DNA of 64,000 bases from Candidatus Avimonas narfae. GTDB taxonomy: Bacteria > Bacillota > Clostridia > Oscillospirales > Acutalibacteraceae. The stretch is taken from contig CAJFNR010000004.1 in the NCBI GenBank assembly GCA_904395335.1, forward strand, positions 62,001-126,000. The letters run 5' to 3'. Of the stretch, positions 2,511 through 39,013 are shown in pieces. Under the pieces are notes generated by a model. That model was not told where the DNA came from, made no database searches, and was given only the letters and a program-made list of their open reading frames with translations. How positions within the stretch are numbered: the stretch's first letter is position 1; the number at the start of each line of letters is the position of its first letter. The translations under genes and the position numbers were made by a program.

Positions 2511-5500
2511 ATGATGTCAAGTGTAATCCGGGTATATGTGGAAAAGCGGGAAGGCTTTGATGTCGAGGCCCGCCACATGCTGGCTGATTTGAAGGATAAC
2601 CTGGGTATCCGGGAACTGGAGGCGCTTCGCCTGCTCAACCGCTACGATATTCAGGGCCTGACGGAGGATGAGTTCCGGCAGGCGCGGGGGACCGTGTTTT
2701 CCGAGCCCAACGCGGATAAGGTATACGATGAGGAGTTCCCGTTGGGGGACGGCTGGAAGGTGTTTGCTATGGAATACCTGCCCGGCCAGTACGACCAGCG
2801 GGCGGATTCCGCCGCCCAGTGTGTCCAGCTGCTCACTCAGGGGGAGCGGCCCCAGGTGCTGACCGCCCGGGTCGTGTGTCTGAAGGGGCGCCTTTCCGAT
2901 GAGCAGTTCCATCGGATCCAGGGCTATCTGGTGAACCCGGTGGAATCGCGCGTCGCCTCCCTGAGCAAGCCGGAAACACTGGATATGACGGCGGAGCGGC
3001 CGGCAGATGTGGCACGGGTTTCCGGCTTCACCGCTATGGATGAGGAAACGCTGAACGGCTACTGGAAGCAGATGGGCTTCGCCATGACGCCGGCGGATCT
3101 GGCCTTCTGCCGCGATTATTTCCGCGATGAGGAGAAGCGCGATCCCACCGTGACGGAGCTGCGCGTCATCGACACCTATTGGTCGGATCATTGCCGCCAC
3201 ACCACCTTCCTGACCCGCCTGACCGATATCGAGGTGGAAAAGTCCGCCCTGACCCGGGCCATCGAGGAGGCACTTTCCGCCTATCTGGAGGCCCGCAGAG
3301 AGGTCTACGGCGAGCGGGAGTCCCAGAAGGATGTCTGCCTGATGGACATGGCGGTTCTGGGCGCCAAGCTGCTGAAAAAGCAGGGCAAGGTGCCGGATCT
3401 GGACGAATCGGACGAGATCAACGCCTGTTCCATCCAGGTACCGGTGACGATTGACGGCCGCACTGAGCAGTGGCTGGTGCAATTCAAAAACGAGACGCAC
3501 AATCATCCCACCGAAATCGAGCCCTTCGGTGGCGCGGCCACCTGTCTGGGCGGCGCCATCCGTGATCCGCTGTCCGGGCGCGCCTATGTCTATCAGGCCA
3601 TGCGGGTCACCGGTAGCGGAGATCCCCGCCTGTCTCTTGAAAAGACCATCCCCGGCAAGCTGCCTACCCGGAAAATTACCACCGGCGCGGCGTCGGGATA
3701 TTCCTCCTATGGCAACCAGATCGGGTTGGCCACCGGCCAGGTGGCGGAACTGTACGATCCCGGCTATGCGGCTAAGCGGCTGGAGATCGGCGCCGTCATC
3801 GGCGCGTCGCCCAAGGCGAACGTGGTGCGGGGAGTGCCCGCACCTGGGGATGTCATTGTCCTGCTGGGCGGACGCACCGGACGGGACGGCTGCGGCGGCG
3901 CCACCGGCTCCTCCAAGGCCCACACCTCCGAATCCATCGACACCTGCGGCGCCGAGGTGCAGAAGGGCAATCCGCCCACCGAGCGGAAGATCCAGCGCCT
4001 GTTCCGCAACGGGGATGTGTCCCGCCTGATTAAGCGTTGCAACGATTTCGGCGCGGGCGGCGTGTGCGTGGCCATCGGTGAGCTGGCCGACGGCCTGGAC
4101 ATCGACCTGGACAGCGTGCCCAAGAAATACGATGGTCTGGACGGCACCGAACTGGCAATCTCCGAGTCCCAGGAGCGTATGGCCGTGGTGCTGGATCCCA
4201 AGGACGTGGAAAAATTCATTGCCGCTTCCGCGGAGGAAAACCTGGAAGCCACGCCGGTGGCAGTGGTCAAGGCGGATCCCCGCTTGACCATGAACTGGAG
4301 GGGTGACCGGGTGGTGGATATCAGCCGTGCCTTCCTCAATACCAACGGTGTTACCCAGACAGCGCAGGCCAGAATCACGGCCCCCGACCCGGACGGCGAG
4401 TACCGCACGGCGATTCCCTCCGGCCTGGCGGTGATCCCGCTGCCTCAGGCGTTTGAGGAGAATCTGGAGCGCCTGGAAGTGGCCAGCCAGAAGGGACTGG
4501 TGGAGCGCTTTGACGCCAGCATCGGCGCGGCTACGGTCAACATGCCCTACGCGGGCAAGTACCAGCTGACGCCGGAGGAGGGCATGGCGGCCAAGCTCCC
4601 GGTGGGAGCGGGTGAGACCGACGATGTCACCGCCATGACCTATGGTTTTATTCCTGGCATTTCCCGGTGGAGCCCCTTCCACGGGGCGGCTTTCGCCGTG
4701 ACCACCTCGTTGTCCAAGCTGGCGGCTATGGGTGTGGATCCGTTCCGGGCGAGGCTGACCTTCCAGGAATATTTCGAGCGCCTACGGGATGTACCGGAGC
4801 GCTGGGGTAAGCCTGCAGCAGCGTTGCTGGGCGCCTTCCTGGCCCAAAAAGAGCTGGGTGTTCCCTCCATCGGCGGCAAAGATTCCATGTCCGGTAGCTT
4901 TGAGCAGCTGGATGTGCCGCCCACGCTGGTGAGCTTTGCTGTGGGCATGGGCAAGGCTTCTCAAATCGGCACCGCTGCCTTCCGCAAGGAGGGCTCCCTG
5001 GTAGCATATCTGCCTCTGCCGGTGAATGCCGACACGCGCCTGCCCGATTGGCCCCGTGTGCGGGAGCTGCTGGATGAGGTGGCCAAGCTGGTGCAGTTCG
5101 GCGTCATCAGTTCCGCCTCTGTGGTACGGGAGGGCGGCGTGGCCGCCGCTGTGGCCCGGATGTGCTTCGGCAACAAGATTGGCTTTGCTTTCAACCGCGG
5201 CATCGACCGCGTGACCCTGTTCGCCCCTCTGGCCGGTTCGCTGGTGGTGGAGCTGAAGGAGGGGGATATGTGCCTGGAGGGGCTGGATTACACCCTGCTG
5301 GGTACCACGGTGGAGGAACCCGCCGTCATCATCGACGGGGAAACGCTTCCGCTGGACGATCTTATCGAGCGCTGGCTATCCCCGCTGGATCCCGTTTTCC
5401 CTGTGGATCCGCCGGAGGAGCCGGACATGACAGTGGAGGTGCCGCTGTACATCCAGCGGTATGCGGAGGCGCCAGCGATTCGCGCGGCCAAGCCCCGTGT

Positions 5501-36328: not shown

Positions 36329-36721
36329 ATGAAAATCCGGTATGAATTTACAAACGGTGAAATTTCTGAAATCGAGGTGGATGAGAGCCTTGGTGAACTG
36401 CTGGTGGAGTTAGACCGGCAGGCGTACAACAACGACCATAAGGAAACCCGCCGCCATACCTCCCTCGACGGGATGGAGTACGAGGGGGCGCTGTTCGCCG
36501 CCCCTGACGATCCGGCGGCAGAAGTGCTGCGGAGGGAGGACGCGGCCCGGCTGCTGCGGGCCATGGAGGCCCTGACCCCTGCCCAGCGGGAGCTGGTGCG
36601 CCGGGTGTACTTTGAAAATGAGAAAATCACGGATATTGCCCGTGCCGAAGGGATAACAAAGCAGTCGATTCATGAGCGCTTGAGACGAGCTTTGAAAAAA
36701 ATAAAAAAATTTTTAGAATAG
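36329..36721 (+). CDS. Phage sigma-70-like regulator
   Basis: 130 residues. The C-terminal half holds a region 4-like HTH (LTPAQRELVRRVYFENEKIT, then DIARAEGITKQSIHERLRRA). Proteins like this act as sigma or transcription activators early in clostridial phage gene clusters. AAGGAG lies 6 bases before ATG 36329, directly after the candidate attenuator. Confidence 0.82.
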   Translation: MKIRYEFTNGEISEIEVDESLGELLVELDRQAYNNDHKETRRHTSLDGMEYEGALFAAPDDPAAEVLRREDAARLLRAMEALTPAQRELVRRVYFENEKITDIARAEGITKQSIHERLRRALKKIKKFLE

Positions 36722-36797
36722 ACCCCTGACTTTTGCCTTTCTCGTGGCCTAACAGTGAGAGCAACAAAAACCGGCTCTCAGAAAGGAGAAAGGCAAC

Positions 36798-37001
36798 ATG
36801 AACCACAACCTGAAAATCAGCCTTGCGGCCCCACCGGACAGCGGGGGAATCGTCCGCTGTAAAACGGTGAATCTGCGGGAGAAGCTGCTGCGCCGCTTGC
36901 TCGGCGATACGCGTCGGGTGACGATCATTGTTCCCGGAGGCAGCGTCAAGGCGCTGTCGGTGCAGGAAGTGCCGGAGGTGGGCGGCCATGAATGCGCGTG
37001 A
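36798..37001 (+). CDS. Small phage protein of unknown function
   Basis: 67 residues, basic middle (LREKLLRRLLGDTRR) and beta-strand-rich C-terminus (VTIIVPGGSVKALSV). Not recognised. AAAGGAG precedes the ATG. It overlaps the helicase start by 14 bases, as is usual for small genes in this replication cluster. Confidence 0.72.
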   Translation: MNHNLKISLAAPPDSGGIVRCKTVNLREKLLRRLLGDTRRVTIIVPGGSVKALSVQEVPEVGGHECA

Positions 37002-37110
37002 GGAAATCCGCCCGGCGCTGCCCATGCCGATTAAGGCCACGCCCTATCGCCACCAGATCGAAGCGTTCAACTTTGTGTGCGGGCTGTTCGGCCTGCTGCC
37101 GGGAGGTGAA
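36988..37110 (+). pseudogene. SNF2-type helicase, detached N-terminal fragment
   Basis: ATG 36988 behind GGAGGTG opens a frame whose product (KATPYRHQIEAFNFVCGLFG) is the RHQ/Q-motif start of phage SNF2-like helicases. The frame runs into the HNH gene and stops at 37176. The matching ATPase core resumes at 37684 in the same frame. So the N-terminal ~41 residues are separated from the rest by an insertion of about 570 bases. Confidence 0.7.
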
Positions 37111-37114
37111 CGGG

Positions 37115-37672
37115 ATGGCCCAAGTGAAGTGTGCTTACTGCGGGAAAGTAATCAACAGGAAGCCAAGTCAGATTAAACGCAGCGCAGCCAGCTATTGTTC
37201 CCCGGAGTGTCATAGGCAAGCCATGAAAAAAGGGACAACCGTTCAATGCGACTGGTGCGGTAAGCCTTTTTACAAACCTCCTTCGGCTATGCGCTCAGAA
37301 GCCAACCTTTGCTCTGCGGCCTGCCGTGATCTCTGGCTGGGACGGAGAAATGTAGTGGTGATGAATAAGCCGGGGCATTCCAAAGGCCACAAGGCTCCCC
37401 ATTTAACCCGACTGAACTGTAAGCGCAATCCGGCTGCCCGCCTTGCGACAAATCCCTCCCGCGTTTCTTCGTACCGTTATCGCAAAATTGCGGAGAGAAA
37501 GATTGGCAGGAAGCTCCGCCCCGGAGAGGTAGTCCATCACATCAATGGAAATCGGAGCGACAACAGGCCGGAAAACTTGCAGGTAATGACACGTTCTGAA
37601 CATTCTCGGCTGCACATGATGATTGCAGTTGCGCGGGATAAAGGGGGTGATGCCTTATGTCAAAAGAAATAA
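37115..37672 (+). CDS. HNH homing endonuclease inserted in the helicase gene
   Basis: 185 residues: two N-terminal CxxC zinc-finger units (CAYCGK...CSPEC, CDWCGK...CSAAC) and a C-terminal HNH nuclease (EVVHHINGNRSDNRPENLQV, ending SEHSRLH). GGGAGGTGAACGG precedes ATG 37115. The ORF fills almost the whole insertion, leaving no room for a group I intron core. Its stop overlaps an ATG that reopens the helicase frame (TAATG at 37670). Confidence 0.88.
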   Translation: MAQVKCAYCGKVINRKPSQIKRSAASYCSPECHRQAMKKGTTVQCDWCGKPFYKPPSAMRSEANLCSAACRDLWLGRRNVVVMNKPGHSKGHKAPHLTRLNCKRNPAARLATNPSRVSSYRYRKIAERKIGRKLRPGEVVHHINGNRSDNRPENLQVMTRSEHSRLHMMIAVARDKGGDALCQKK

Positions 37673-37708
37673 TGCGTTCAAAAGGCGCTGCTCTTTTGAT
37701 GGAATGAA

Positions 37709-39013
37709 ATGGGAACCGGGAAAAGTCTAACGGCTATCGCCATCACCGGGGCGCTCTCGCAGGCTGGCCGGATTCGCCGGGGGCTCGTTGTGGCCCCCCT
37801 CTCCATCCTCGGCGTGTGGGAGGAGGAGTTTCAGAAATTCGCCGCTTTCCCGTATGCGCTGGCGGTGCTTTCCGGCTCCGGGGCCAAGAAGCTGGATATC
37901 CTGCGGCACATGACCGGAACCGCCTTACAGGTGGCGGTTGTGAACTATGAGAGCGCGTGGCGGATGGAAAAAGACCTCGCCGCATGGCACCCCGATCTGA
38001 TTATCGCGGACGAGGGTCACAAAATCAAAACCCACAATATCGCCGCCAGCAAGGCCATGCACCGGCTGGGGGCGCGGGCAAGCTACCGGCTTCTGCTCAC
38101 CGGCACGGTGATAACCAACAAGGCCATTGACGTGTTCAGCCAGTACAAATTCCTGAATCCCGCCATCTACGGCCAGAGCTTTTACGCTTTCCGCAACCGT
38201 TACTTCGACATGGTGGGCTATGGCAACCACACCCCGGTGCTCAAAAGATCCATGGAGGCGGAGCTGACCGAAAAGCTGCACAGCATTTCCTACCGAGCGA
38301 CCAAGGCGGAATGCCTCGACCTCCCGGAAACGGTGGACGTGATCCGGCAGGTGGAGTTGGAGCCTGCCGCCTTGCGGGTATACCGCCAGCTCGTCAAAGA
38401 GAGCTATGCGGAATTATCCGGCGGCAAGGAAATCACGGCCCCGAATATCCTCGCCCGGCTGCTGCGGCTGTCCCAGCTCACCGGCGGTTTTCTCGGTAAC
38501 GACGAAACCAGCGCCGTGGAGCAGGTAAGCGCCGCAAAGCTGGCCGCCTTGGAGGACATTCTGGACGGGGCCATGGCCGAGGGTAAAAAGCTGGTGATAA
38601 TCGCCCGCTTCCTGCCGGAAATCAAGGCCATCTGCGGACTGCTGGAAAAGCGGGGTCTTGGGTATTCCTGCATTACCGGCGAGGTCAAAGACCGAAACGA
38701 GCAGGTGGCGCGGTTTCAGAACGATCCGGCGGTCGTGGCCTTTGTGGGCCAGATCGCCACGGCTGGCTTGGGAATTACCCTGACCGCCGCTTCCACCATG
38801 GTGTTCTATTCCCTCGACTATTCCATGTCGAACTTCGAGCAGGCCAAGGCCCGGATTCACCGGGTGGGCCAGCGGAACCTCTGCACCTACCTGTATCTTG
38901 TGGCCCGTGGGACGGTGGATGAAAAGGTGCTGGCGGCCTTGAAGGATAAGGCCGACCTTGCAAAATCCCTTGTGGACGATTACCGCAGCGGCAAAAATCC
39001 GTTCGCGGTGTAG
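37709..39013 (+). CDS. SNF2/DEAD-box helicase, main part
   Basis: 434 residues: Walker A MGTGKS at the very N-terminus, Walker B ADEGH near residue 100, LLTGTVITN, and the helicase C domain with motif VI QAKARIHRVGQR. It is a phage replication/recombination ATPase. The true coding frame starts earlier: GAALLME is read from 37684, then a 4-base excess (TGAA, 37705-37708) causes a stop and shift just before ATG 37709. Translation could restart there because HNH stop, ATG 37672 and this ATG are close. Without the N-terminal RHQ motif activity may be reduced. Confidence 0.88.
   Translation: MGTGKSLTAIAITGALSQAGRIRRGLVVAPLSILGVWEEEFQKFAAFPYALAVLSGSGAKKLDILRHMTGTALQVAVVNYESAWRMEKDLAAWHPDLIIADEGHKIKTHNIAASKAMHRLGARASYRLLLTGTVITNKAIDVFSQYKFLNPAIYGQSFYAFRNRYFDMVGYGNHTPVLKRSMEAELTEKLHSISYRATKAECLDLPETVDVIRQVELEPAALRVYRQLVKESYAELSGGKEITAPNILARLLRLSQLTGGFLGNDETSAVEQVSAAKLAALEDILDGAMAEGKKLVIIARFLPEIKAICGLLEKRGLGYSCITGEVKDRNEQVARFQNDPAVVAFVGQIATAGLGITLTAASTMVFYSLDYSMSNFEQAKARIHRVGQRNLCTYLYLVARGTVDEKVLAALKDKADLAKSLVDDYRSGKNPFAV

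Follow-up and report, generated by a model that had tools for sequence, protein, structure and literature searches.

The SNF2 helicase gene of a prophage in Candidatus Avimonas narfae is interrupted at its P-loop by four bases that carry an in-frame stop, next to an HNH homing endonuclease gene, and comparison with related phage helicases makes it likely that ribosomes bypass this insert in the manner of a miniature T4 gene 60. Bypassing is favoured because this one explanation covers all the features of such sites, from the stop and the matched codon to the mixed insert lengths, the stem and the conservation. More broadly, these sequences probably represent a mobile class of miniature bypass cassettes, in which the P-loop of phage SNF2-type helicases would be the entry site of HNH genes, whose stop-hop inserts would persist after loss of the endonuclease. 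The inserts of the proposed cassettes are mostly 4–10 nt long, reach 44 nt and in one case occur as two in tandem. The initial annotation of the window (the whole 64,000-nt stretch of contig CAJFNR010000004.1 analysed here) had suggested coupled restarts or a dead gene; given the related phage helicases, both readings are too local.

The helicase of the window reads as three overlapping pieces, namely an RHQ fragment, the HNH_3 gene and the C-part (Table 1), and both the helicase and the HNH_3 gene are present in one copy each in the genome. In intact relatives the RHQ part runs on into Walker A without a change of frame. The initial annotation was right about the split by the HNH gene and about its coordinates, and the arrangement that would have spoken against it, the same HNH gene as normal neighbour of a helicase starting at Walker A, is not what the intact relatives have. 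The restart ATG overlapping the HNH stop was likewise confirmed, and the same restart layout was also found in loci L064 and L078. The four extra bases that had been noted as giving a stop are indeed extra when compared with the contiguous LLMEMGTGK of intact relatives. Beyond the TGA, which falls just 5' of the Walker A lysine, the C-part continues one base later and in another frame, and a domain search found both the SNF2 and Helicase_C domains in the helicase.

Table 1. Features of the interrupted helicase and its surroundings (positions in the window).
Feature	Position	Strand	Remarks
N-terminal helicase fragment, RHQ motif PYRHQIEAFNFVCGLFGLL	36988..37176	+	Separate short ORF from ATG 36988 (ATPYRHQIEAF...LLPGGE) to TAA 37174–37176, running into the HNH insertion
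HNH homing endonuclease gene (HNH_3)	37115..37672	+	ATG 37115 to TAA 37670–37672; Pfam HNH_3, 53.2 bits against a cut-off of 24.8
Shine-Dalgarno-like AAAGGGGGTGAT	37640..37651	+	Precedes the restart ATG; putative role, from sequence
Helicase C-part: restart ATG with its 16-codon leader, MSKEIMRSKGAALLME	37657..37704	+	ATG 37657–37659 within the HNH end reopens the helicase frame; 16 codons up to GAA 37702–37704
5' stem-loop, 9-bp outer stem GTCAAAAGA/TCTTTTGAT	37659..37700	+	Predicted fold; its end lies just 5' of the take-off codon
Proposed take-off codon GAA (Glu)	37702..37704	+	Window sequence and pattern of interrupted relatives
4-base insert TGAA	37705..37708	+	Against intact relatives with contiguous LLMEMGTGK; in-frame stop TGA 37705–37707, gap base T 37705, landing codon GAA 37706–37708
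SNF2 ATPase/helicase, Walker A (MGTGKS) to stop	37709..39013	+	SNF2-rel_dom, Helicase_C; frame from ATG 37709
Prophage replication module			Sigma-70 region 4 protein, SNF2 helicase, DUF7307, family A DNA polymerase, D5/RepB-type primase

A sequencing error was rejected as the source of the four bases, since comparable inserts lie at the same place in independent contigs and in isolate genomes. A group I or II self-splicing intron was also rejected. No catalytic RNA was recognisable with Rfam in 36700–38000, where the sole match was a chance-level sRNA (13.6 bits; gathering threshold 37.8), and the earlier statement that there is no room for an intron holds. The insert might still be taken out of the DNA or RNA before translation as a tiny intron, by editing or by programmed excision, and a normal protein would presumably result. 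Such removal leaves the choice of a stop and the codon-framed match described below unexplained, in addition to the missing Rfam intron, and is exceedingly improbable. No machinery is known in bacteria for introns of 4–10 nt.

Interruptions of this kind recur among phage helicases. Viral contigs were searched with the part of the helicase that follows the P-loop (family 1), and most of the 80 loci obtained had an uninterrupted PYxHQ...LLMEMGTGK, with a minority having a stop exactly at the P-loop, often without an HNH gene. A pattern search that allowed any insertion of 1–18 nt between ME and TGK, with no stop required, added loci from viral contigs, from species genomes (among the matches listed) and from 394 and 391 genomes of the order and class; five pattern matches (L108, L122, L153, L247 and L252) were dropped as not being interrupted helicases. 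Relatives of the HNH protein led on to another, distant helicase family (MKFIPHDYQ...LDMGLGKT; family 2) that has this type of interruption, and an 80-locus sample obtained with a query lacking the P-loop confirmed it. After exclusion of loci whose contig did not include the P-loop (66 and 79 left) and removal of redundancy, 13 of 64 genes in family 1 and 15 of 68 in family 2 were interrupted at the P-loop, both P-loop-blind samples being the nearest relatives of the queries and not the families at large. The interruptions lie within about 15 nt of the P-loop. The downstream gene otherwise has only two early stops (L071 and L068), both in P-loop-intact alleles, so that the interruptions cluster in some 15 nt of a gene about 1,300 nt long. 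On the family-1 tree (84 rows) the state changes between intact and interrupted 16 times and the form of the insert 28 times; the row nearest to the window, L183, has a different insert.

The inserts share a common anatomy. Letter-by-letter inspection of 84 loci (85 rows) gave 62 distinct forms, and the statistics on these forms exclude three shift-like alleles (L278, L279 and L344) and any repeat of one form in the same family, as well as L354 and L377, whose forms are identical to L359 and L393. A stop stands directly 3' of the take-off codon in 57 of the 62 forms (all except L158, L482, L310, L266 and L346), against a local stop frequency of 4.5%. Where the +4 base lies outside the landing codon, it is C, a weak and leaky stop context, in 22 of 28 forms. 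The take-off codon encodes Gly in 48 forms; Glu, Met, Thr, Val and Leu also occur, and the gaps range from 1 to 41 nt. Examples are GAA T GAA (window), GGT TGACCC GGT (L183), GGA TAGCCC GGA (L127), GGC TGACAA GGC (L007), GGT TGA GGC (L414), GTC TAG GTC (L275) and ACT TG ACC (L106). Skipping the insert would restore a normal helicase protein, as judged against intact relatives. The landing codon specifies the same amino acid as the take-off codon in 40 of 62 forms (20,000 null draws had a mean of 4.7 and at most 16) and is not synonymous in the other 22. When third-base wobble is accepted, two or all three positions of the landing codon match the take-off codon in all 62 (null mean 14.8, maximum 29).

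The same-amino-acid match is confined to its register. It is absent at offsets −2 to −4 and +1 to +5 and is found in 6 of 62 forms at −1; the 27 matches at offset +6 are to be expected from the second Gly of GxGK. Among the 40 same-amino-acid landings, the third base differs in 23 and the codon is identical in 17, and the flanking bases match in just 9 and 3 of the 40. A target-site duplication as the origin of the codon match is disfavoured by these flanking bases and third-base differences. A codon-sized, in-register match is what re-pairing of a peptidyl-tRNA needs, whereas a DNA duplication would behave differently.

The insert lengths fall into the three phases modulo 3 in a ratio of 22:20:20, and therefore neither plain readthrough nor one frameshift could serve all forms. 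Readthrough or simple frameshifting at the stop would fit the leaky +4 C contexts, some in-frame inserts of 6 and 9 nt and the +1- or +2-like alleles L278, L279 and L344. It would however need a different shift each time across the three phases, readthrough would place at least two residues in the P-loop, and neither process predicts a matched landing codon, all of which makes this explanation very improbable. The three shift-like alleles lie beside HNH genes and read CTT C GGC (+1, L344), GGG TAA (+1, L278) and CTC TA GGT (+2, L279), the first without a stop. Two further alleles have unusual forms. In L272 (IMGVR_UViG_3300035365_000039) two putative hops lie 12 nt apart in one P-loop (GAA TAGCCCC GAA ATG GGG TGC GGT TA GGT AAA), and L258 has, around 3220–3270, a 44-nt insert (GGT-TGA ... 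GGT) that is the nearest in form to T4 gene 60. A pattern search for longer inserts (gap 11–41 nt) gave no stretches in family 1 and two in family 2; the latter were rejected because they are not helicase-like and their translations past the match break at stops.

Coupled restarts, as proposed by the initial annotation, would mean that the leader ends at TGA 37705 and that the ribosome reinitiates at ATG 37709, making a separate chain from Walker A. This is possible in the window, where an ATG lies one base past the stop, as it does also in L078, L031 and L064. Most other forms have no start codon at the point where reading resumes (GGC TGACAA GGC ACA, GGT TGA GGC AAG, GGT T GAC AAA and ATG TAG CTG, for instance), and therefore reinitiation cannot be the general mechanism. 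It also leaves unexplained the codon match and the way the stem follows the position of the take-off codon, and its product, starting with MGTGK, would be without the strand that precedes the P-loop. Overall, reinitiation is an unlikely reading of these sites.

The stem preceding the take-off codon is a further feature of interrupted alleles in both families and is missing from intact ones. The predicted stem of the window has a z-score of −2.0, or −2.6 when the final 50 nt are folded. In family 1, the 50 nt that end with the take-off codon folded much better than shuffled sequences in interrupted alleles, with a mean z of −2.83 and 81% under −2 (n = 42), compared with −0.10 and 2% in intact alleles (n = 56; p 1e-13). 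Between the 3' arm and the last base of the take-off codon there are 0–5 nt, mostly 3 nt, and the stem shifts with this codon, whether it is the Glu, Met, first Gly, Thr or second Gly. In family 2 the 50-nt folding test showed no clear effect (z −0.26 vs. 0.08, p 0.07); there the arm pairs with sequence 50–110 nt upstream. The allele's own upstream sequence pairs better with its arm than that of other alleles in 35 of 42 cases in family 1 (p 1.5e-6) and, in a segment picked after inspection of the duplexes, in 32 of 42 in family 2 (p 1.2e-6). This swap test gave no own-upstream effect in intact alleles or in the segment of the other family. Column-wise pairing was 80.5% and 85.2%, as against 35–53% when slid by 1–3 columns. 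Covariation was modest: both partners had changed in five and two pairs, counts that 156 and 354 of 500 shuffles also attained. Interrupted and intact alleles did not differ in mean folding energy over the whole 60 nt, the effect being in the z-score and position, nor did they differ in downstream RNA structure. A take-off stem-loop enclosing the take-off codon and stop was not found in the window, where the 1-nt gap is too short for one; L258 has a 13-bp hairpin that encloses both.

Beyond the interruption, the gene has been conserved. For closely related alleles sharing an interruption, dN/dS past this point was 0.058 (L105/L090), 0.060 (L254/L251), 0.072 (L046/L110), 0.053 (L418/L420), 0.042 (L423/L424), 0.058 (L454/L473) and 0.081 (L414/L415); more distant pairs were higher (L032/L126, 0.186; L414/L445, 0.225) or saturated. 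By this measure, the sequence past the stop is under strong purifying selection. The downstream frames are about 420–470 aa long in most of 36 family-1 alleles, and four run off their contigs (L176, L253, L160 and, at 420 aa, L167). Three bacterial contigs, L182, L184 and L199, have further stops 58, 189 and 76 codons past the P-loop, and some interrupted copies may therefore be dead. The inactive helicase considered in the initial annotation would be such a copy, its stops being, like the scars of cutting, the traces of attack by a homing endonuclease; that the stops occupy a conserved site close to endonuclease genes also agrees with it. As an account of the interrupted helicases it is nevertheless quite improbable, and for the window it is disfavoured, given the full-length gene past the stop and the dN/dS of about 0.04–0.08 in the closest allele pairs. 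Scarring is also at odds with stops that are in frame, in leaky context and flanked by matched codons, and with the presence of an interrupted single copy in a plaque-forming virulent phage. The Glutamicibacter phage Montesquieu, which is reported as plaque-purified with clear plaques in the available part of its description (PMC9331655), has ATG TAGCTA ATC in the P-loop of its sole match to the helicase. The Paenibacillus phage Pd_22F (L494) also has a single helicase match, with GGT TA GGT. At 2565–2715 of Pd_22F, the annotated helicase CDS begins about 50 codons past the P-loop, a late start attributable to the interruption.

The inserts are associated with HNH genes, whose relatives occupy the same place in other helicase alleles. 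An HNH gene adjoins interrupted P-loops more often than intact ones both in family 1 (5 of 6 vs. 8 of 58, p 9e-4) and in family 2 (7 of 7 vs. 8 of 61, p 7e-6). After correction for the family-1 tree, the differing pairs are few and all in one direction, and the association is borderline (median p 0.06). Besides L006 and L343, some ten further helicases are exceptions that have an HNH neighbour and yet an intact P-loop. L414 has the HNH gene and the 95%-identical L415 lacks it but retains the insert; L064 has the gene, and both gene and insert are missing from L019, its neighbour on the tree. In family 1, the linker of interrupted alleles that lack HNH is longer and contains the Shine-Dalgarno-like GGAGGTGAT, and apparent HNH or restart remnants are kept in L250, L073 and L029. 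On the basis of L415, these linkers and these remnants, the HNH gene seems to have been lost with the insert retained.

Taken as a mechanism, bypassing would proceed as follows. An HNH homing endonuclease would have invaded the helicase beside the P-loop, presumably cleaving intact P-loop DNA, and by analogy with T4 the short insert would spoil the endonuclease target. The insert would be tolerated because ribosomes hop over the extra bases; we infer both the hop and its efficiency from the anatomy of the site. In the window, a ribosome starting at ATG 37657 would make 16 residues and reach GAA 37702–37704 with UGA in the A site. The 5' hairpin would then form behind the ribosome, the peptidyl-tRNA(Glu) would detach and re-pair with GAA 37706–37708, and decoding would resume at ATG 37709 to give a normal LLME-MGTGKS P-loop. 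The RHQ fragment (36988–37176) may work in trans, as T4 gp39 does with gp60.

The arrangement resembles that of T4 gene 60 in several respects. In T4, used as a control, the gene order is 39, mobA, 60.1, 60, with GGA, TAG, 50 nt and GGA. As in the gene 60/mobA region, the HNH gene splits a gene for an ATP-using DNA enzyme and the C-part restarts as its own cistron; the immediate stop after the take-off codon, the matched landing codon and the 5' stem-loop are also shared. In gene 60 a hairpin encloses the take-off codon and stop, and a stimulatory nascent peptide lies about 25–30 residues back. The T4 insert is 50 nt long, whereas those of the helicases are mostly 4–10 nt. The helicase elements are set apart from the gene 60 element by having no take-off hairpin in the gap, with the exception of L258 (44 nt), and no long leader peptide, the restart alleles being without one and the window having a gap of 1 nt and, if translation restarts at 37657, a leader of 16 codons. 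T4 is moreover one case in a topoisomerase, while here many independent cases affect a helicase P-loop. The available parts of the literature describe for gene 60 the stop beside the take-off codon, the matched codons, the 5' stem-loop and the homing endonuclease, and propose that the insert may have protected against the endonuclease; they give yeast mitochondria as the other natural case of bypassing and a Streptomyces phage as a possible one (PMC5009743, PMC3014915, PMC11194080).

Weiss et al. (1987) have reported synthetic stop-hops in E. coli in which matched codons flank a stop and 9 nt are read as one residue (as summarised in part of PMC5009743). The same arrangement occurs naturally here as GGT TGA GGC, GGT TAG GGC and GTC TAG GTC, and the excerpts available from the 2016 review give natural in-frame stop hopping as not known (PMC5009743). 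The same excerpts describe many short inserts in Magnusiomyces mitochondria that are hopped, avoiding gene loss, with two-of-three landing pairing tolerated (PMC5009743). Those are read by mitochondrial ribosomes in a loose context, in contrast to the helicase elements, where the ribosomes are bacterial and a stop codon is present together with a 5' stem. An out-of-frame HNH insertion in phage methylases has been reported for ShiLan (PMC11855218, in part). It shares with the helicases an intron-less and intein-less HNH gene inside a phage enzyme gene, with related HNH matches, but it is read through in the frame of the host gene, and the abstract mentions no stop or hop (PMC11855218). No description of the helicase elements was found in the open-access literature searched.

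According to the parts available of two sources, programmed bypassing has been studied essentially on one bacterial mRNA, that of T4 gene 60 (PMC5009743, PMC11194080). If the present reading is true, there would be dozens of natural stop-hops on bacterial ribosomes as opposed to the single T4 case, and this natural library of variants would separate the roles of the stop codon, the landing match and the 5' stem. Annotation pipelines lose the ATPase site of interrupted helicases, as in Pd_22F. The variants would also put to the test the idea that homing endonucleases leave bypass elements behind as immunity scars.
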